Position numbers and translations under genes: made by a program. Below the pieces are notes generated by a model. The model was not told the DNA's origin. It was given only the letters and a program-made list of their open reading frames with translations, and searched no databases. Below are positions 10,828 to 18,719 of a stretch of 64,000 nucleotides of DNA, piece after piece. The stretch is from Bacteroidota bacterium (GTDB lineage: Bacteria > Bacteroidota > Bacteroidia > B-17B0 > Aurantibacillaceae), in NCBI GenBank assembly GCA_030692515.1, contig JAUXZS010000028.1:62001-126000 (forward strand), written 5' to 3'. Every line of letters begins with the position of its first letter. Within the stretch, counting starts at the first letter, position 1.

Positions 10828-12831
10828 ATGATGATTACTGCTGAAATGCCCGTAAAATTTGATCGTAAAAAGCATAAAGACTCCACTTTATTAGAGCTTT
10901 ACGTTAACCTTCTAAAACCTCGAATGATTGAAGAAAAAATGTTATTACTTCTTCGTCAAGGAAAAATTTCTAAATGGTTTAGTGGTATTGGACAAGAAGC
11001 AATTTCGGTAGGCGTAGCTTCTGCTTTAGATAAAGATGAATATATTTTACCAATGCACCGTAATCTTGGTGTATTTACAACACGTCAAATTCCATTAAAC
11101 AGATTATTTTCTCAATTTCAAGGCAAGCCCGGGGGCTTTACACAAGGTCGCGATCGTTCTTTTCACTTTGGTACTAATGAATATAAAATTGTTGGGATGA
11201 TTTCACATCTTGGTCCGCAAATGGGCGTGGCGGATGGAATAGCGCTTGCCGATAAATTAAAAAAAGATAAAAAAGTTACCGTCGTTTTTAGTGGTGATGG
11301 TGGCGCAAGTGAGGGAGATTTTCATGAAAGTATTAATACTGCTGCTGTATGGGACTTACCAGTTATTTTTGTAATAGAAAATAACGGTTACGGACTTAGT
11401 ACACCAAGTAACGAACAATTTAGATGTGCATCTTTTGCCGATAAAGCCATTGGATATGGTATTGAGGGAATTTCTATTGACGGAAATAATGTTTTAAAAG
11501 TTTACGAAACAGTAAAAAATTTAGCAGAAAGTATTCGTGAAAATCCTCGTCCAGTAATATTGGAATGTGTTACATTTCGTATGCGCGGTCATGAAGAAGC
11601 AAGTGGTACTAAGTATGTACCTAAAGAATTATTTGAAGTATGGGGAAGAAAAGATCCTTTAAATACATTCGAGAAGTTTTTAATTAACGAAGGTGTTTTA
11701 ACTGAAGAGTTAATTGAAAAAACAAGAGCAGAAATTAAACAAGATATTGAGTCAGGTTTGGAAGTTGCATTTGCAGAACAAAATCCAAAACCAGATACAG
11801 AAAAAGAAATAAGAGAATTATTTAAACCTTATACTACTTCTGATACAACACCAACAAACGGTTCTAAAACTAACATGCGTTTAATTGATGCCATTAGTAA
11901 CGGGATGAAACTTGCCATGCAAAAACATTCTAATCTCGTTTTAATGGGGCAAGATATTGCCGATTACGGTGGTGTTTTTAAAATTACAGATGGCTTTGTT
12001 GAACTTTTCGGAAAAGGAAGAGTAAGAAATACCCCTTTGTGCGAAAGCGCTATTTTAGGTGCAGGTTTTGGTTTATCCATAAATGGTTATAAAGCCATGG
12101 TTGAAATGCAATTTGCTGATTTTGTTACCGAAGGTATGACGCAAATAATAAATAATCTTGCAAAAAGTCATTACCGTTGGGGACAAAATGCGGATGTAGT
12201 TGTTCGTATGCCAACGGGAGCAGGAGTTGCGGCTGGTCCATTTCACAGTCAGAGTAACGAAGCTTGGTTTTTTAAAACACCGGGGTTAAAAATTGTTTAT
12301 CCCGCATTTCCGAGTGATGCAAAAGGTTTATTAATTACAGCATTTGAGGATCCAAATCCTGTAATGTATTTTGAGCATAAAGCATTATATAGGAGTATAA
12401 CAGAAGATGTGCCGGATGAATATTATACCATCCCTTTTGGTAAAGCAAGATTAGTGAAAGAAGGAAATGATTTAACCATAGTTACTTATGGCTTAGGAGT
12501 TCATTGGGCAATTGAAGCTTTAGCTGAAAATCTTGATTTAAGCGCTGACTTAATTGATTTAAGAACTTTAGCACCTTTAGATATTGAAACAATTTTTGCT
12601 TCAGTTAAAAAAACAGGCAAAGTAATTGTAATGCATGAAGATACGTTGACTGGAGGAATTGCCGGAGAAATTGCAGCATTAATTAGCGAAAACTGTTTTG
12701 ATTATTTAGATGCACCTGTAATGCGTGAAGGAAGTTTAGATACACCTGTACCAATGAATGTGGATTTGGAACATAACTTTTTACCAAAAGAAAGGTTCAA
12801 AGAAAAATTAATGAAACTTTGGAAGTATTAA
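10828..12831 (+). CDS. fused 2-oxoacid dehydrogenase E1 component, alpha and beta (667 aa)
   Basis: The thiamine-diphosphate-dependent E1 decarboxylates a 2-oxoacid (branched-chain type or pyruvate) and passes the acyl group to the lipoyl E2. The N-terminal half (about residues 20-330) is E1-alpha, with the TPP motif starting GDGGASEGDFHE near residue 156 and ending ENNGYG. The C-terminal half (about 350-667) is E1-beta with LMGQDIADYGGVF, EMQFADF, PTGAGVAAGPFHSQS and the closing HEDTLTGGIAGEI. The fusion of the two chains is common in Bacteroidota. E2 and E3 genes are not nearby. Two Met codons begin the frame (10828 and 10831); the first is used here. Confidence 0.92.
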   Translation: MMITAEMPVKFDRKKHKDSTLLELYVNLLKPRMIEEKMLLLLRQGKISKWFSGIGQEAISVGVASALDKDEYILPMHRNLGVFTTRQIPLNRLFSQFQGKPGGFTQGRDRSFHFGTNEYKIVGMISHLGPQMGVADGIALADKLKKDKKVTVVFSGDGGASEGDFHESINTAAVWDLPVIFVIENNGYGLSTPSNEQFRCASFADKAIGYGIEGISIDGNNVLKVYETVKNLAESIRENPRPVILECVTFRMRGHEEASGTKYVPKELFEVWGRKDPLNTFEKFLINEGVLTEELIEKTRAEIKQDIESGLEVAFAEQNPKPDTEKEIRELFKPYTTSDTTPTNGSKTNMRLIDAISNGMKLAMQKHSNLVLMGQDIADYGGVFKITDGFVELFGKGRVRNTPLCESAILGAGFGLSINGYKAMVEMQFADFVTEGMTQIINNLAKSHYRWGQNADVVVRMPTGAGVAAGPFHSQSNEAWFFKTPGLKIVYPAFPSDAKGLLITAFEDPNPVMYFEHKALYRSITEDVPDEYYTIPFGKARLVKEGNDLTIVTYGLGVHWAIEALAENLDLSADLIDLRTLAPLDIETIFASVKKTGKVIVMHEDTLTGGIAGEIAALISENCFDYLDAPVMREGSLDTPVPMNVDLEHNFLPKERFKEKLMKLWKY

Positions 12832-12838
12832 TCCTTAT

Positions 12839-12873
12839 AACACCTGTCAGGTTTTAAAAACCTGACAGGTGTT
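12839..12873. repeat. REP-like near-perfect palindrome
   Basis: AACACCTGTCAGGTTTT at 12839-12855 and its exact reverse complement at 12857-12873 are separated by one base. The element starts 7 bases after the E1 stop and ends 13 bases before the start of a REP-associated transposase gene. RAYTs are known to sit beside the palindromes they act on, so this is probably the cognate repeat. It may also act as a terminator for the E1 gene, but only a short T-run follows. Confidence 0.8.
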
Positions 12874-12886
12874 TCCGTAAATAATC

Positions 12887-13468
12887 ATGCAAATAATTGA
12901 ACCATTACAGTACGGGAAATTCTATCACATTTATAACCGTGGTATTAATGGTGATAAACTATTTTATGATGATGGTAATTACAATTATTTTTTAAAATTA
13001 TATGAGACTCATATAGACCCAATTGCTGATACTTATAGCTATTGTTTAATGAATAATCATTTTCATTTTTTAATTAGAATAAAGGAAGAAGATGAAATAT
13101 TGACAAGGCCAATAAAAGCGCCACATCAATATTTCTCTAACTTATTTAATGCCTACACTAAGGCTATAAATAAAAAGTATACCCGAAATAGTAGCCTTTT
13201 TCAGAGAACATTTAAACGGAAATTAATTGATAGAGAATCGTATTTTAAGCAGGTTGTAGTATACATTAATACAAATCCTGTTCATCATAAAGCCTGTGAC
13301 GATCCAAAAGATTATGTCTGGAGTTCTTATTTATCTTGTATTTCTAACGTTCCATCAAAAATTAAAAAAAACGAAGTAATTGATTGGTTTGACAATATTG
13401 ATAACTTTAAATCTGTTCACCAACAAAAATTGAATACAATAGAAATTGAAAATTATTTAGAATTATAA
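12887..13468 (+). CDS. REP-associated tyrosine transposase (RAYT, Y1_Tnp fold, 193 aa)
   Basis: The protein belongs to the Y1 transposase superfamily (HUH endonuclease). The HUH pair is HFH at residues 58-60 within MNNHFHFLI, and the catalytic Tyr is probably Tyr126 in VVVYINTNP, the usual position in RAYTs. The N-terminal YHIYNRGINGD and the central SLFQRTFKRK are also typical. Such proteins act on single-stranded hairpins and are thought to spread REP palindromes. The matching palindrome lies directly upstream at 12839-12873. The gene is intact and runs into the threonine aldolase gene after an 11-base gap. Confidence 0.9.
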   Translation: MQIIEPLQYGKFYHIYNRGINGDKLFYDDGNYNYFLKLYETHIDPIADTYSYCLMNNHFHFLIRIKEEDEILTRPIKAPHQYFSNLFNAYTKAINKKYTRNSSLFQRTFKRKLIDRESYFKQVVVYINTNPVHHKACDDPKDYVWSSYLSCISNVPSKIKKNEVIDWFDNIDNFKSVHQQKLNTIEIENYLEL

Positions 13469-13479
13469 AATAGCATACT

Positions 13480-14505
13480 ATGAATATCATTGACCTAAGA
13501 AGCGATACAGTTACCAAACCATCAAAGCAAATGATGGAAGCAATGTTTAATGCTGAAGTTGGAGACGATGTATTTAAAGAAGACCCAACCATCATTGAAT
13601 TAGAAAAATTTGCTGCTAATTTATTTGGTAAAGAAGCAGGTTTGTTTTGTCCGAGTGGCACTATGACAAATCAAATTGCCATTAAAGTTCATACACAGCC
13701 TGGCGATGAATTAATTTGTGATGTTAACTCACACATTTATAATTATGAAGGCGGTGGAATTTCGTTTAACTCGGGAGTACAAGCAAAATTATTACAAGGA
13801 AATGAAGGTAGACTATCTGCTGAATTAATTGAGCCTGCTATTAATGGCGACTTTGATTGGTTAACCAAAACCAGTTTAGTATCTCTTGAAAATACTGTAA
13901 ATAGAGCAGGGGGGAGTTATTATACAAATGATCAAATAAAACCCATACAAGCTTTATGTAAAAAGCATAATTTAAAATTACATTTGGATGGCGCTCGTAT
14001 TTTTAATGCTTTAGTAGAGTCAAACGAAAGTCCAAAACAAATTGGCGATTGCTTTGATTCAATTTCTATTTGTTTATCAAAAGGGTTAGGTGCGCCTGTA
14101 GGTTCTGTTTTATTAGGCGACAAAGATTTTATAAAAAATTCGCGTCGCATTCGTAAAGTTTTTGGTGGCGGCATGCGTCAAGCAGGAATCCTTGCTGCAG
14201 CAGGATTATACGCTTTGAAAAATAACGTTTCACGTTTAAAAGAAGATCATACACGCGCAAAAAAACTGGAACAAGCATTAAAGCAATTATCCTATATAGA
14301 TTCTGTTTTACCGGTTTATACAAACATTATAATTTTTAATTTAAAATCAGAAATTATTACCGGCGAAGCATTTGAGAAAAAGCTATTAGATAATAATATT
14401 AAAATTGCCGCCTTCGGTAAACATACCATTCGTATGGTAACGCATTTAGATTTTGATGATGCAATGTTGGATAGAACGATTGAGGTGTTGAAGGGTATTT
14501 TTTAA
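13480..14505 (+). CDS. ltaE: low-specificity L-threonine aldolase
   Basis: This PLP enzyme cleaves L-threonine and L-allo-threonine to glycine and acetaldehyde. The 341-residue length fits. The start is typical (IDLRSDTVTKPS), followed by GDDVFKEDPT, FCPSGTMTNQIA and the substrate loop. The PLP-binding Asp is in HLDGARIFNA, and the Schiff-base lysine is Lys201 in SICLSKGLGAPVGS. GGGMRQAG follows, as in the family. It is a plain metabolic gene, placed between a transposase gene and a repeat array. Confidence 0.95.
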   Translation: MNIIDLRSDTVTKPSKQMMEAMFNAEVGDDVFKEDPTIIELEKFAANLFGKEAGLFCPSGTMTNQIAIKVHTQPGDELICDVNSHIYNYEGGGISFNSGVQAKLLQGNEGRLSAELIEPAINGDFDWLTKTSLVSLENTVNRAGGSYYTNDQIKPIQALCKKHNLKLHLDGARIFNALVESNESPKQIGDCFDSISICLSKGLGAPVGSVLLGDKDFIKNSRRIRKVFGGGMRQAGILAAAGLYALKNNVSRLKEDHTRAKKLEQALKQLSYIDSVLPVYTNIIIFNLKSEIITGEAFEKKLLDNNIKIAAFGKHTIRMVTHLDFDDAMLDRTIEVLKGIF

Positions 14506-14599
14506 TAAAACAAGAATTTTAGTAATCATATAAACAAAAAACATCTGTGCAAATCTGTAGAACCTTTTTTGTCTACAAATTTTCTTGATTTAAAAAAAA

Positions 14600-16029
14600 T
14601 CCCGTAGGGACTAAATATTATCGAATAAAGATAATATATAACCTAATGTCCCTTAGTGACGATATAACATCCGGATAATTTCATAGCAATAAATCAAATA
14701 GTTTCTACAATAATTATTTCGTCCCTACGGGACTAACATTGTCACTTTAATTTTTCTATAGTTATTTTGTCCCTACGGGACATCTTATATCCGTAAAAAT
14801 TCAACTAAATCCCGTAGGGATTAAATATTCTAGAATATGAGATTATACAAATTAAAGTCCTGTAGGGACGATGTAACATCCACGAAAATTAACATTAAAA
14901 TAAATTAAAGGTTATACAATTATTATTTCGTCCCTATGGGACTAATTGTTCTCTTTTATCGTTTCCATATATATTTAGTCCCTACGGGAAAAGGAATGAA
15001 AAAAATACATCAATTGAAATTTTAAATACTACAAATTGTAGATGCAGAATATTATAAAACCAATTAATTTTGAATAAAAAAATCCCGTTAAGGATTAAAT
15101 ATTATTGAATAAGGATAATATATAACCTAATGTCCCGCAGGGACGATATAATATCCACGAAAATTAATATTTCAATAAATTAAATGTTAAATAATTATTA
15201 TTTCGTCCCTGTGGGACTATTTGTTCTCTTCATTCATTCTTTCTTTCTATTGATATTTTGTCCCTAGCGGGACAAGCAATTAATAATAATTGTCACAGAA
15301 AATTTCACATACTACAAATTGTAGCCACAGGTTAGTATAAAACTAATTGATTTTGATTCTGAAAAATTACCCGTTAATAATCCCGTTAGGGATTTAATAT
15401 TATAGAAAACACAGAATAAATAAATTTAAGTCCCGTAGGGACGATATAATATCTATATAATTTCATAGCAACAAATCGAATGGTTTCTTAATAATTATTT
15501 CGTCCCTACGGGACTAATTGTTTCTTTTTTATCTTTTCTATAGATATGTTGTCCCTACGGGACATTTAAGAACCTCAATGATGTTCCAACAGTCAATAAT
15601 CCAAACTTTCAATTTTTGAAACTGATCTGTTTTTAATTCTTATATCTTATTTGCTTAAATAAATCTCTCTAGGAATTAAATATTATAGAAATAAATTAAT
15701 ATACAAACCTAAGTCCCGTAGGGACGAAATAAATTCCACTAGAATTTATGTATCGATAATATTGATTTTTTTTCGTCAATAATTATTTCGTCCCTACGGG
15801 ACTATATGTTCCTTTATTATCGTTTCTATAAATATTTTGTCCCTAACGGGACAAGGAACAAAAAAAAATGAATCAATGAAAATTTCACATACTACAAAAC
15901 GTAGCCACAGAATAGTATAAAACCAATTAATTTTACTTCTAAAAAAATAAAAATTGCACTTTAATAATCCCATTAGGGATTTAATATTATAGAAAACACA
16001 GAATAAATAAATTTAAGTCCCGTAGGGAC
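14600..16029. repeat. array of 22 GTCCCTACGGGAC-type palindromes in 5.5 mirrored units
   Basis: The whole gap between ltaE and the TnpA gene is built from short palindromes related to GTCCCGTAGGGAC. Their starts are near 14600, 14648, 14721, 14769; 14810, 14857, 14930, 14978; 15082, 15132, 15205, 15260; 15381, 15430, 15502, 15551; 15664 (degenerate), 15713, 15790, 15839; 15967 and 16017. Each unit is A-B-C-D, where A-B and C-D are inverted copies of each other. Spacings are about 48 (A-B), 73 (B-C) and 48-55 (C-D). Three of the unit joints share a second motif, ACTACAAATTGTAG-like, at 15028, 15311 and 15891. The last half unit ends 12 bases before the TnpA start codon. No coding potential is seen. 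Confidence 0.9.
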
Positions 16030-16041
16030 GAAATAAAATCA

Positions 16042-16503
16042 ATGGCAAATACGTACACACAAATATATCTTCAATTTGTTTTTTCGGTGAAATATAGAGA
16101 TGCTGTAATTAATAATGAATGGAAAGATGAATTATATAAATACATAACCGGGATTGTTAAAAACAACAATCACAAAATGATTTGTATTAACGGTATCCCA
16201 GATCATATTCACATATTAGTGGGATTAAATCCAGTACAATCAATTTCAAATCTCTTACAAGATATAAAAGGGAACTCATCTAAATGGATTAATGAAAAAC
16301 GTTTAGTGAAAGGTAAATTTGAATGGCAAGAAGGTTACGGGGCTTTTTCTTATAGTCAATCACAAATTAAAGATATCGTTGCATATATCGAAAACCAGGA
16401 AGAACATCACAAAAAGAAATCGTTTAATGAAGAATATCTTGATTTCCTGAAAAAATTTGAAGTGAGTTATGATGAGAAATTTACTTTTAAAGAATTGATC
16501 TAA
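16042..16503 (+). CDS. tnpA: IS200/IS605-type TnpA transposase (153 aa)
   Basis: This is a small HUH/Y1 transposase. The HUH pair is HIH at residues 55-57 (GIPDHIHILVG) and the catalytic Tyr is probably Tyr115 in AYIENQEEHH, the IS200 pattern. The length is normal and the frame is intact. There is no tnpB or iscB gene beside it, and no copy of the palindrome is seen downstream. A palindrome of the array ends 12 bases before the ATG. The arrangement suggests a domesticated or RAYT-like enzyme serving the repeat array rather than a simple insertion sequence. Confidence 0.92.
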   Translation: MANTYTQIYLQFVFSVKYRDAVINNEWKDELYKYITGIVKNNNHKMICINGIPDHIHILVGLNPVQSISNLLQDIKGNSSKWINEKRLVKGKFEWQEGYGAFSYSQSQIKDIVAYIENQEEHHKKKSFNEEYLDFLKKFEVSYDEKFTFKELI

Positions 16504-16571
16504 TTTCACAAAGCTCGAAAAAATCAGTGATAACCTGCTATATCAGTGTTATCTGTGTTCCATATCCTAAA

Positions 16572-17051
16572 TCAAAACACCATTTTTATCTGATCCATTT
16601 TATCCATGAATTCAAATACATTACCGGCTTTCATAGTTTTAATATTTTCGTAAAAAGGTGATTTTGATGAAACCACCATTACGCGTTTATCATCAATTTT
16701 TATAGGACCTAAACCAATTGCAACAAAAAATAATATATCCGACATTTCAAAAATAGAACCAATTTTAATTTCTTCGGCCAAATTATTGACTTCTACTTTT
16801 TCTAAAAAACCTAATTCCTGTTCGGCCTCCAATAGTTGTTTAGTATTCATATCGCTATCTAATTGTCCCATTGCTCTGGAGGTTTCGTATTTATCTCCGG
16901 CGGTACTTTTATCAGAACTATTTGCTGCCTCTTGAGCTTGTGAAACTGCAGCTTTAGCATTATCAATACGTTGGTTAATTTGTTTTATACATTCAGATTT
17001 AACCAATTTTTTAAAGGCTAATTTATCGGCTGGGCTTTTTAATTCAATCAT
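16572..17051 (-). CDS. Gre-factor-like protein (159 aa)
   Basis: The first half is a charged helical region (LAFKKLVKSECIKQINQRIDNAKAAVSQAQEAA) followed by DKSTAGDKYETSRAMGQLDSDMN, which resembles the tip of the GreA/GreB coiled-coil finger. The C-terminal half (about 95-159) has FFVAIGLGPIKIDDKRVMVVSSKSPF, like the Gre FKBP-type domain. Members of this group are often mislabelled as 3-oxoacyl-ACP synthase, for which nothing here gives support. A role at the RNA polymerase secondary channel is possible but inferred. The gene is alone on its transcript. Confidence 0.6.
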   Translation of the reverse strand: MIELKSPADKLAFKKLVKSECIKQINQRIDNAKAAVSQAQEAANSSDKSTAGDKYETSRAMGQLDSDMNTKQLLEAEQELGFLEKVEVNNLAEEIKIGSIFEMSDILFFVAIGLGPIKIDDKRVMVVSSKSPFYENIKTMKAGNVFEFMDKMDQIKMVF

Positions 17052-17153: not shown

Positions 17154-18719
17154 CTATTTTTTTATCAGTTTAAATTCAAAGTCCTTATCTATTTTTTCAA
17201 ATGCTATTGGATCAACATCTACAACAAGAGTCGTATACCCTTCAAATTCTACAATTGCTTTGTATGATTTTAATGGATTAACAATTAAAATAAATTTACC
17301 GGTTTTTGGATTAGAATTATAAGTACCATTTACCGCATTTCCTTCATTATCTAATAGTGTAATTTTTACTTTTGACGGAATGCCATCTTTAAAGGCCATT
17401 CCATGTTTCACTTTTAAATCATTGTCTCCAAAGCGAGTATCAATTTCAAATATATCACTACTACCAATAGTCTCTTCTTTTAGCGAAGAATAAAAACCTC
17501 TTTGCCCGTTAACATTTAAAATAAAAAAAATATCGTTTCCCACATCGTTGATAGGGTAGCCTAAATTCTCTGCTTTAGAAAAAGTATTTGCTTCAGGATC
17601 ATAAACGCTTTTAAATACATCGTATTCGCCCATTGTATTATGTCCTTTGCTACTGAAATACAACGTTACATTATCAGGGTGCAAAAAAGGACTATCTTCA
17701 TCATATAAAGTATTTATGTTTGGTCCTAAATTAAAGGGTAAAGCCCATTTTCCATTTGGGAGCTTTTTTATCCTATAAATATCTTTTCCACCATAGCCAC
17801 CCGGACGATTACTGCTAAAATAGAGTAGGTTGGTGTCATTAGTAAAACATGCACTTGTTTCTGTAAATTGTGAATTTATTTCTTTAATCATTTTTTTTAG
17901 AGGCTCCCATTTATTATCTAAACCCAATTTTGTTATATACAAATCGCCTGTAACTTTATCTTCAGCTGTTCTATACAGAATCATTCTTTGTCCGTCTGGA
18001 CTAATTGCCACACATGCATCGTTAGTTTCAGAATTTATTGGCGTGCCTACATTTTCTGCTTTTTGCCATTTACCATTTTCTTTGTGAGAAACATAAACGT
18101 CTTCAAAATAATTTCCATACGCGTCTTTTTTATTGTTTGAACTCCCTTCTCTTCTTGAAGTAAAGTAAAGTGTATTTTCATCAGGAACTATTACCGGAAC
18201 ATAATCGGAATAAATTGAATTAATTTCTGGCCCCATGTTTTTTATAACAGAACGGTGAGCTTGGCTTATCATTGTTTTTGCTGATTTACAAATATCTATT
18301 AAATAATTAGCTTCCTCAGTAGTGCGTAGGCGACTTTTTGGACTTGCTCTATTATAGTCTGAAAGCAATTGTATTGCTTCATCAAAACTTTTTTGTTGAT
18401 GTTTTATTTTTGCCAAATAATATTTCGCATCAATTAAACCAGAAGAAATTAAACTTGGTATAAAAATTTGTGCGCTATCTAAAGAATAATTTATTTTAAA
18501 AAAAGTAATAGCAATATTAACTCCGGCTTTTTCATTTTTAGAATCTAGCTTTAAAACTTGCCTGTATTGACTCCAAGCTCCTAGATGGTCTTCTATATCA
18601 AAACTTAACTGAGCTTCTTTTAAAAGTTTTTTTACATGCTTTTTATCCTCTTTAGACTGCCCTTGAAGGTTTACGAAAGAGGATATTAATACAGATATGA
18701 TAAAGTACTTTTTAAACAT
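17154..18719 (-). CDS. TPR and PD40 (WD40-like) beta-propeller protein (521 aa)
   Basis: A signal peptide (MFKKYFIISVLISSFVNLQGQS) is followed by helical TPR-like repeats at about 25-150. PD40 blades span about 165-440, for example IVPDENTLYFTSRREGS, ISPDGQRMILYRT, DTNLLYFSSNRPGGYGGKDIY and DVTLYFSSKG-like stretches. A small beta domain of carboxypeptidase-regulatory type ends the protein (about 450-521). Relatives in Bacteroidota usually carry a C-terminal OmpA peptidoglycan-binding domain, which is missing here. It is probably periplasmic or outer-membrane associated. Function unknown. Confidence 0.8.
   Translation of the reverse strand: MFKKYFIISVLISSFVNLQGQSKEDKKHVKKLLKEAQLSFDIEDHLGAWSQYRQVLKLDSKNEKAGVNIAITFFKINYSLDSAQIFIPSLISSGLIDAKYYLAKIKHQQKSFDEAIQLLSDYNRASPKSRLRTTEEANYLIDICKSAKTMISQAHRSVIKNMGPEINSIYSDYVPVIVPDENTLYFTSRREGSSNNKKDAYGNYFEDVYVSHKENGKWQKAENVGTPINSETNDACVAISPDGQRMILYRTAEDKVTGDLYITKLGLDNKWEPLKKMIKEINSQFTETSACFTNDTNLLYFSSNRPGGYGGKDIYRIKKLPNGKWALPFNLGPNINTLYDEDSPFLHPDNVTLYFSSKGHNTMGEYDVFKSVYDPEANTFSKAENLGYPINDVGNDIFFILNVNGQRGFYSSLKEETIGSSDIFEIDTRFGDNDLKVKHGMAFKDGIPSKVKITLLDNEGNAVNGTYNSNPKTGKFILIVNPLKSYKAIVEFEGYTTLVVDVDPIAFEKIDKDFEFKLIKK

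Follow-up and report, generated by a model that had tools for sequence, protein, structure and literature searches.

Hairpin doublets beside a stationary IS200-class transposase gene in Bacteroidota: a possible REPtron-like system

In the 64,000-nt stretch of Bacteroidota DNA analysed here (the window; G000:C58:62001-126000, from a genome of 4.33 Mb, with a window G+C of 31%), a regular array of palindromes runs up to the start codon of an IS200-like transposase gene, tnpA, and this raises the question of whether the enzyme and the palindromes belong together. We consider it likely that they do, as a REPtron-like system in which an IS200-class enzyme would act on a hairpin doublet.

All 22 GTCCC-type palindromes of the original prediction were recovered at 14600-16029 with up to two mismatches, the degenerate A of unit 5 included, and a window scan with up to one mismatch gave 21 at 14600-16028. 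The exact pattern TCCCNNNGGGA has 14 matches in the 64-kb window, every one within the array (shuffles, mean 0.17, maximum 2). Start-to-start spacings are 48-50 nt for A-B, 72-77 nt for B-C, 48-56 nt for C-D and 40-128 nt from D to the next A, with A-to-A unit lengths of 210-304 nt; near-constant spacings within units of variable length (previously given as 210-303) are thus borne out, as are the 12 nt between the last palindrome (16017-16029) and the ATG at 16042. The description of A-B and C-D as inverted copies of each other needs qualification. They are inverted, but the likeness is rough: within species, reverse-complemented C-D is 56% (0.564) identical to A-B, which is less than the 70% (0.695) between A-B doublets of different species, and for this reason the two look like old, distinct types. 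Doublets are more alike within species (0.77, 0.81) than between species (0.70, 0.68). Likewise, units do hold four palindromes, but not in the proposed order A-B-C-D; because aligned dispersed copies have the order C-D-A-B (see below), the array is better read as one A-B doublet, then five C-D-A-B units, then tnpA. The features are as follows, with all doublets taken from the palindrome scan.

13480-14505, plus strand: aldolase gene (NF041359, 391.8 bits; in 9 of 11 regions compared), left syntenic anchor, outside the system
14600-16029, plus strand: array, A-B then five C-D-A-B units, 22 palindromes (palindrome scans, shuffle control)
14600-14659, plus strand: A-B doublet 1
14721-14780, minus strand: C-D doublet 1 (inverted)
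14809-14868, plus strand: A-B doublet 2
14930-14989, minus strand: C-D doublet 2
15083-15143, plus strand: A-B doublet 3
15205-15272, minus strand: C-D doublet 3
15381-15441, plus strand: A-B doublet 4, 95% identical to doublet 6 (identity comparison)
15502-15562, minus strand: C-D doublet 4
15664-15724, plus strand: A-B doublet 5, A degenerate
15790-15851, minus strand: C-D doublet 5
15968-16028, plus strand: A-B doublet 6, directly before tnpA
16017-16029, plus strand: B hairpin beside the ATG, GTCCCGTAGGGAC, at a similar position in orthologues
16042-16503, plus strand: tnpA, 153-aa HUH Y1 transposase, TnpA-Y1 subclass 1.2 by motif (PF01797, NF033573, motifs)
16572-17051, minus strand: 159-aa ORF without Pfam match, right syntenic anchor, outside the system

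The gene encodes an intact IS200-like enzyme and no classical RAYT, as had been proposed. It scores 103.4 bits with PF01797 (Y1_Tnp) and 79.3 bits with the IS200 model NF033573 (cut-off 55), and the RAYT model NF047646 gives 30.4 bits, below its cut-off of 80. Its motifs are D54-H55-I-H57, W95-Q96 and Y115...Q119..H122-H123 (YIENQEEHH); D54, H55, H57, W95, Q96, Y115, Q119, H122 and H123 are invariant in a 16-sequence alignment, and Y...Q..HH is found in 136 of 141 full-length relatives. The Y...NP motif of class 2 REPtron enzymes is absent, with Y115IENQ in its place. A profile of 16 relatives found the ISDra2 and IS608 TnpA among solved structures (8 distinct sequences in all). In a Foldseek search with the AlphaFold2 model (mean pLDDT 87), 29 of 30 matches at E <= 0.001 were IS200-type chains; the RAYT 4er8 came 30th by E-value, yet had the lowest rmsd in monomer superposition (2.6 versus 5.2-15.8 for IS200-type chains). 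The predicted lack of tnpB agrees with the five neighbouring proteins scanned, none of which is a TnpB. A defence role was also considered and rejected, with no PADLOC match for either Y1 protein, TnpA or the RAYT-like one described below. Two further Y1_Tnp matches occur in the genome (G000:C54:21869-22090 and C57:319-495), the latter spanning half of the profile and lying some 319 nt into a short contig. The closest named TnpA among the matches listed, at 90% identity, is from a Bacteroidia MAG (L137).

Table 1 of Quentin et al. 2018 (PMC6006769) gives DH[IV]H, WQ and Y...Q..HH together as the motif set of TnpA-Y1 subclass 1.2. The accessible part of that paper gives for this subclass a REP entry of 'no', a mean of 1.7 copies per genome, 36% identity (Table 1), a median length of 148 aa, low copy number and occurrence in Bacteroidetes, generally without typical terminal IS200 structures. 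Motifs, length, low copy number (one copy in G000) and occurrence in Bacteroidetes are alike here. Judged by protein motif, the window enzyme is a member of subclass 1.2, with a feature missing from the accessible published description, namely its hairpins. A literature search, which took in at most 20-25 matches per listing and few subscription papers or preprints, returned no link of subclass 1.2 to repeats.

Hairpins beside tnpA recur well beyond the window. They were scored in 150 TnpA loci, 70 of the window's family and the best 80 of 577 named ones, a set that leans to close relatives, as stems of at least 5 bp with loops of 3-5 nt and three or more G/C pairs; a second hairpin 43-56 nt off was counted as the partner. 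Upstream, 63 of 137 loci have a hairpin no more than 25 nt from the ATG, and in 50 of them it has a partner, compared with means of 2.5 and 0.03 (maxima 5 and 1) in dinucleotide shuffles and with 12 and 4 of 243 other ORFs. Downstream, 67 of 138 loci have a hairpin within 25 nt past the stop codon, 54 with a partner (shuffles, means 3.0 and 0.07, maxima 6 and 1; other ORFs, 44 and 19 of 285). Among the 136 loci with both flanks, B and C are both present in 28, B only in 35, C only in 38 and neither in 35; hence a gene-adjacent hairpin on the start or stop side is found in 101, its partner usually about 50 nt off, and a one-sided hairpin in 73. Both A-B and C-D closely flank the gene in 18. The original statement that no palindrome follows the gene is right for the window, where none lies close behind tnpA and the next downstream match with up to one mismatch is at 17750, but 53 of the 136 relatives have a hairpin pair after the stop codon. 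The description of subclass 1.2 as free of REPs and generally of typical IS200 ends, as given in the part of the source cited above, does not fit here, with hairpins at 101 of 136 genes (35 being without) and copies elsewhere in the genome.

Loops are purine-rich upstream (B, 51/63; A, 30/50) and pyrimidine-rich downstream (C, 47/66; D, 34/53), and the sides are therefore for the most part inverted relative to each other. In 16 of 28 loci B and C agree in their inner-stem letters (permutation mean 2.7, maximum 9). Stem identity of A with D is at the edge (6/18, largest permuted 6), and that of A with C and of B with D is not above permutation (3/23 and 3/22, largest permuted 5). The outer hairpins, A and D, have a common 3' tail with the consensus AATATTNGTAGA: at offset 9 beyond the 3' side of the 5-bp stem, GTAG is found in 19 of 50 A hairpins and in 14 of 53 D hairpins, whereas 0 of 63 B and 4 of 66 C hairpins have it at any position of their 40-nt tail. 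On the 5' side, the 15 nt ahead of the stems have a consensus that is mostly A- or T-rich and lacks a conserved GT[AG]G foot. Plasmid genes served as a small control. Five IS200-like TnpA without Y...Q..HH have no upstream doublet, and all five have a hairpin within 100 nt downstream; among three plasmid or megaplasmid TnpA with Y...Q..HH, none has an upstream hairpin within 25 nt, although one of the three, from Bernardetia, carries two equal hairpins upstream, at distances of 32 and 85 nt from its ATG. Y...Q..HH was also seen in a Rickettsiales plasmid TnpA (L344, Candidatus Megaera).

Hairpins at such a place might instead work as RNA, as attenuator, terminator or translational control of tnpA, and not as DNA substrates. 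Of the 63 loci with an upstream hairpin within 25 nt, 55 indeed have the end of the nearest one 8-17 nt ahead of the ATG, and the tnpA of IS200 is regulated by structure in its 5' UTR. However, the RNA fold of 15955-16080 is unremarkable (z -1.5), whereas in single-stranded DNA folding both hairpins form on both strands of the one A-B and the one C-D doublet folded (z -2.9 to -4.3). Moreover, copies stand at sites without tnpA, and no Rfam family reaches threshold in 14400-16700, where the best sub-threshold rows are plant miRNA models. We regard control at the RNA level as a highly improbable explanation of the hairpins, and the suggested autoregulation by the hairpin beside the ATG receives no clear support from RNA folding. 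Seven sub-threshold matches to Acido-Lenti-1 (RF01687; 18-21 bits, cut-off 37) cover hairpin and tail in the array, on both strands.

In favour of the doublet as a DNA substrate of TnpA, the reading that we prefer, stem and enzyme vary together. Stem similarity follows TnpA identity with a Mantel r of 0.655 for B (largest permuted 0.31), 0.48 for A and 0.43 for C; D stems follow weakly (r 0.21; among pairs under 75% identity, 0.13 against a permuted maximum of 0.22). The B stem is identical in the nearest TnpA neighbour in 40 of 63 cases (permutation mean 9.4, maximum 19). Paralogues of one genome have different stems in 22 of the 23 pairs in which both have an inner hairpin, which is weak evidence alone and close to expectation for unrelated pairs, given that neighbours drawn by permutation agree in the stem in only 9.4 of 63 cases.

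Repeats and enzyme also occur in the same genomes. At least three GTCCC palindromes are present in 23 of 44 genomes with a TnpA match and in 1 of 43 without, at least three GCTCC palindromes in 24 of 44 versus 4 of 43, and at least three copies of the third stem, TTGCCCC, in 3 of 44 versus 0 of 43, all uncorrected for genome size and relatedness. GTCCC totals are 219 with and 21 without TnpA, compared with 36 and 20 for the reversed pattern. With the tnpA-locus copies subtracted, counts are still higher in cognate genomes than in the rest (p 5e-5 and 9e-6), but only modestly higher than in genomes with other TnpA (p 0.04 and 0.02); in this comparison the 'no tnpA' group includes five genomes with TnpA matches whose loci were not taken in. 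For the third stem, TTGCCCCNNNGGGGCAA, every copy in the three cognate genomes stands at a tnpA locus. Copy numbers are low, 27 in G000 and at most 68 for any pattern and genome searched, the latter being the GCTCC palindromes of G067. The predicted link between repeat and enzyme is supported by copies elsewhere, by co-occurrence with TnpA and by variable array length, with the reservation that a few genomes have repeats without a detected TnpA, namely G043 (7 GTCCC) and G049 (25 GCTCC).

The copies elsewhere, which the original prediction had proposed to look for, are readily found. G000 has 27 exact places of GTCCCNNNGGGAC and none of the reversed pattern; 16 of the 27 lie outside the window array, on other contigs, and no Y1_Tnp match stands within 10 kb of any of these 16. 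From five genomes 25 dispersed loci (7 + 18) were taken, of which 15 were chosen for alignment and aligned as four-hairpin C-D-A-B elements; in each of the ten left out, between one and six hairpins were recognised, arranged differently or incompletely. Unit order was read from the alignment because loop composition often fails to orient single hairpins. The consensus has inverted ends, taaTATTTCGTCCCTACGGGACTT and aAGTCCCGTAGGGACGAAATAtt (capitals, at least 80%; small letters, at least 60%), the tails of B and C point outward, and similarity among the copies ends about 8-10 nt beyond the outer hairpins. Between hand-set ends, 11 of the 15 measure 142-159 nt, two are shorter (103 and 123 nt) and two longer (218 and 220 nt), and 14 overlap no reading frame of at least 100 codons.

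Sites of dispersed elements differ in occupancy between species. The element at C19 is present in G000, G026, G034 and G011 and absent in G016 and G015, with longer gaps in G005 and G012. That at C66 is absent in G034, G016 and G039; G015 has a lone A-B there, and in G005 a longer gap is filled with other sequence. At C68 the element is shared, with one A-B fewer in G026, and no clean empty site was found at this locus in the synteny comparison.

Could such repeats grow and spread by replication slippage, unequal recombination or foldback, with the enzyme having an unrelated job? Tandem copies at C54 and C68 include flanking DNA, and G011 has two tandem A-B doublets that are 99% identical and about 242 nt apart. 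Array length alone is therefore no proof of enzyme action, and the unit-wise copying by the enzyme that had been suggested stays a conjecture, since some tandem copies, with their flanking DNA, fit ordinary duplication. However, slippage leaves unexplained both the C-D-A-B elements at unlinked intergenic sites with species-variable occupancy and the co-variation of stem and enzyme; as a full account, an enzyme unconnected with its repeats seems quite improbable to us. With TnpA taken as the agent of spread, growth of the array was probably a mixture of enzyme action and tandem duplication.

The gene itself has a stable location. At the same site between the aldolase gene and the 159-aa ORF, tnpA and array are present in five of nine species, with 22 (G000), 12 (G026), 15 (G011), 4 (G005) and 4 (G012) palindromes at up to two mismatches, the G012 count leaving out one far-off match; the proposed comparison of array length, run here between species, gives different lengths at one site. 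Both are absent in G034, G016, G015 and G039, where the gap is 8-156 nt. Genome-wide, GTCCC palindromes number 27, 17, 21, 7 and 7 in the five species as ordered above, and 2 in G015, 1 in G016 and 0 in G039 (73% complete); G034, with 20, lacks tnpA at the site but has other TnpA genes. Presence and absence are interleaved on the tree of the flanking genes, which by hand count needs at least four changes, e.g. one old presence and four losses. For tnpA, dN is 0.04-0.14 and dS at least 0.88 (near saturation), a low dN/dS and similar to the neighbouring genes, and the G005 gene has one in-frame stop. Behind the window tnpA (about 16520-16570) there is a repeat-like stretch ending in ATCTGTGTTCC, and a similar stretch was seen between the flanking genes where tnpA is absent (L249, L255).

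These data bear on a further alternative, in which A-B-tnpA-C-D is an insertion sequence of the IS200 type, A-B its left and C-D its right end; the window copy would have lost the right end, and array and dispersed copies would be MITEs formed by internal deletion. Both pairs closely flanking the gene in the 18 loci mentioned (at least B and C in 28), and the keeping of A-B and C-D as two distinct types between species, are what such an element would show. Nevertheless, no near-identical tnpA exist within a genome: 48 same-genome pairs have a median identity of 45% and a maximum of 78%, none reaching 90%. In addition, tnpA sits at one site in five species with dN and dS like its neighbours, and the dispersed copies in the alignment have the order C-D-A-B rather than A-B-C-D, the tails of B and C facing outward. 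A low copy number also belongs, in the accessible part of PMC6006769, to the traits of the subclass. We hold an insertion sequence to be unlikely, although it is the strongest of the alternatives considered.

A second Y1 gene lies nearby, at 12887-13468, and the repeats might belong to it. Its protein is RAYT-like and of class 2 type, with Y...NP in its sequence and 64.4 bits with NF047646 (under the cut-off of 80); it stands 1.1 kb from the array and is found in four of the five array-bearing species and in none of the four without tnpA. The exception is G011, which has array and tnpA and no RAYT match at the locus, and because of this the gene is rejected as the driver. Furthermore, no palindromes adjoin it (none at up to one mismatch in 12443-14599), and the hairpins adjoin tnpA in many genomes and co-vary with tnpA. 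Ownership by this gene has scarcely any probability left.

We therefore return to tnpA and propose the following. Subclass 1.2 TnpA would recognise its own family of hairpin doublets, each of two short hairpins in the same orientation about 50 nt apart, with A-B beside the start codon and the inverted C-D after the stop codon or elsewhere in an array. TnpA would act on single-stranded DNA and bind both hairpins of a doublet; dimers of IS608 TnpA bind two hairpins, and a same-strand pair about 50 nt apart would suit an enzyme of that kind. Elements end some 8-10 nt beyond the 3' side of the outer hairpin, which is near the distance of the IS608 right-end cut, and we therefore predict that TnpA cuts within the conserved AAATATT tail or directly behind it, some 8-11 nt 3' of a hairpin. 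In this way it would move or copy small non-autonomous elements, namely C-D-A-B of mostly about 150 nt and sometimes A-B by itself, into intergenic sites, and tnpA itself would stay put under vertical inheritance. What appears to be a matching family of hairpin pairs around the gene and across the genome suggests that the enzyme spreads the repeats.

Among known systems, the REPtron is closest in working. Class 2 RAYTs share with our case a low-copy stationary gene, inverted flanking hairpin repeats, copies in trans and co-variation of enzyme and repeat, as far as the accessible parts of PMC6006769 and PMC8266576 describe them, and here too the gene is flanked by hairpin repeats with copies in trans. 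The present system works like a REPtron, yet is no class 2 REPtron: the enzyme is of class 1 with Y...Q..HH in place of Y...NP, the 5' GT[AG]G foot is not conserved and a AATATTNGTAG motif instead lies 3' of the outer hairpin, and the unit is a doublet of hairpins. With IS200/IS605 elements (IS608, ISDra2; subclass 1.1) it has the best profile matches, the best Foldseek E-values and subterminal hairpins in common, but those elements have high-copy, near-identical mobile tnpA, whereas here 0 of 48 pairs reach 90% identity, hairpin pairs are inverted and the location is stable (one site, five of nine species). REPINs and BIMEs are likewise inverted repeats of hairpin units in tandem arrays and intergenic DNA, and inverted pairs dispersed between genes are found here as well (15 of 25 loci aligned, 14 of the 15 intergenic), but with four hairpins per unit, two per arm, and far fewer copies.

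More tentatively still, and as something we would put at somewhat under an even chance, IS200-class enzymes may have given rise, independently of RAYTs, to a second stationary lineage that spreads hairpins, with a two-hairpin substrate whose stem is a changeable address, each enzyme clade, and each paralogue within one cell, reading its own. Subclass 1.2 has so far stood as related to IS200 without properties of an IS and without REPs, and it gains a substrate if the link holds; a second, separately derived stationary transposase with its own repeat family would then be open to comparison with RAYTs. As the stems are clade-specific and the tail is constant, the specificity of enzyme for hairpin is directly testable. 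If true, this would also explain a class of GTCCC/GCTCC-type palindromes in the intergenic DNA of Bacteroidota.

CGTC-tagged REPs were considered as an identity for these palindromes. No dedicated transposase is reported for them, and stems are of 8-9 bp, in the part of Di Nocera et al. 2013 (PMC3733652) drawn on here. In the window clade CGTC does overlap the foot of the outer hairpin, but the stem is of 5 bp and includes TC, where CGTC REPs have an unpaired tag and the longer stem, and other clades of the system have other letters there; the identity was rejected. Two further observations concern repeats. In locus L022 a D-type palindrome occurs twice, at 2365 and 3502, a distance of 1137 nt; the surroundings of the two are similar and include hairpins like CAGAATTTATAATTCTG. 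Another dispersed repeat, at about 2719-2788 of L020, is 87-93% identical over about 40-66 nt, with several copies in G012 and one in G026.
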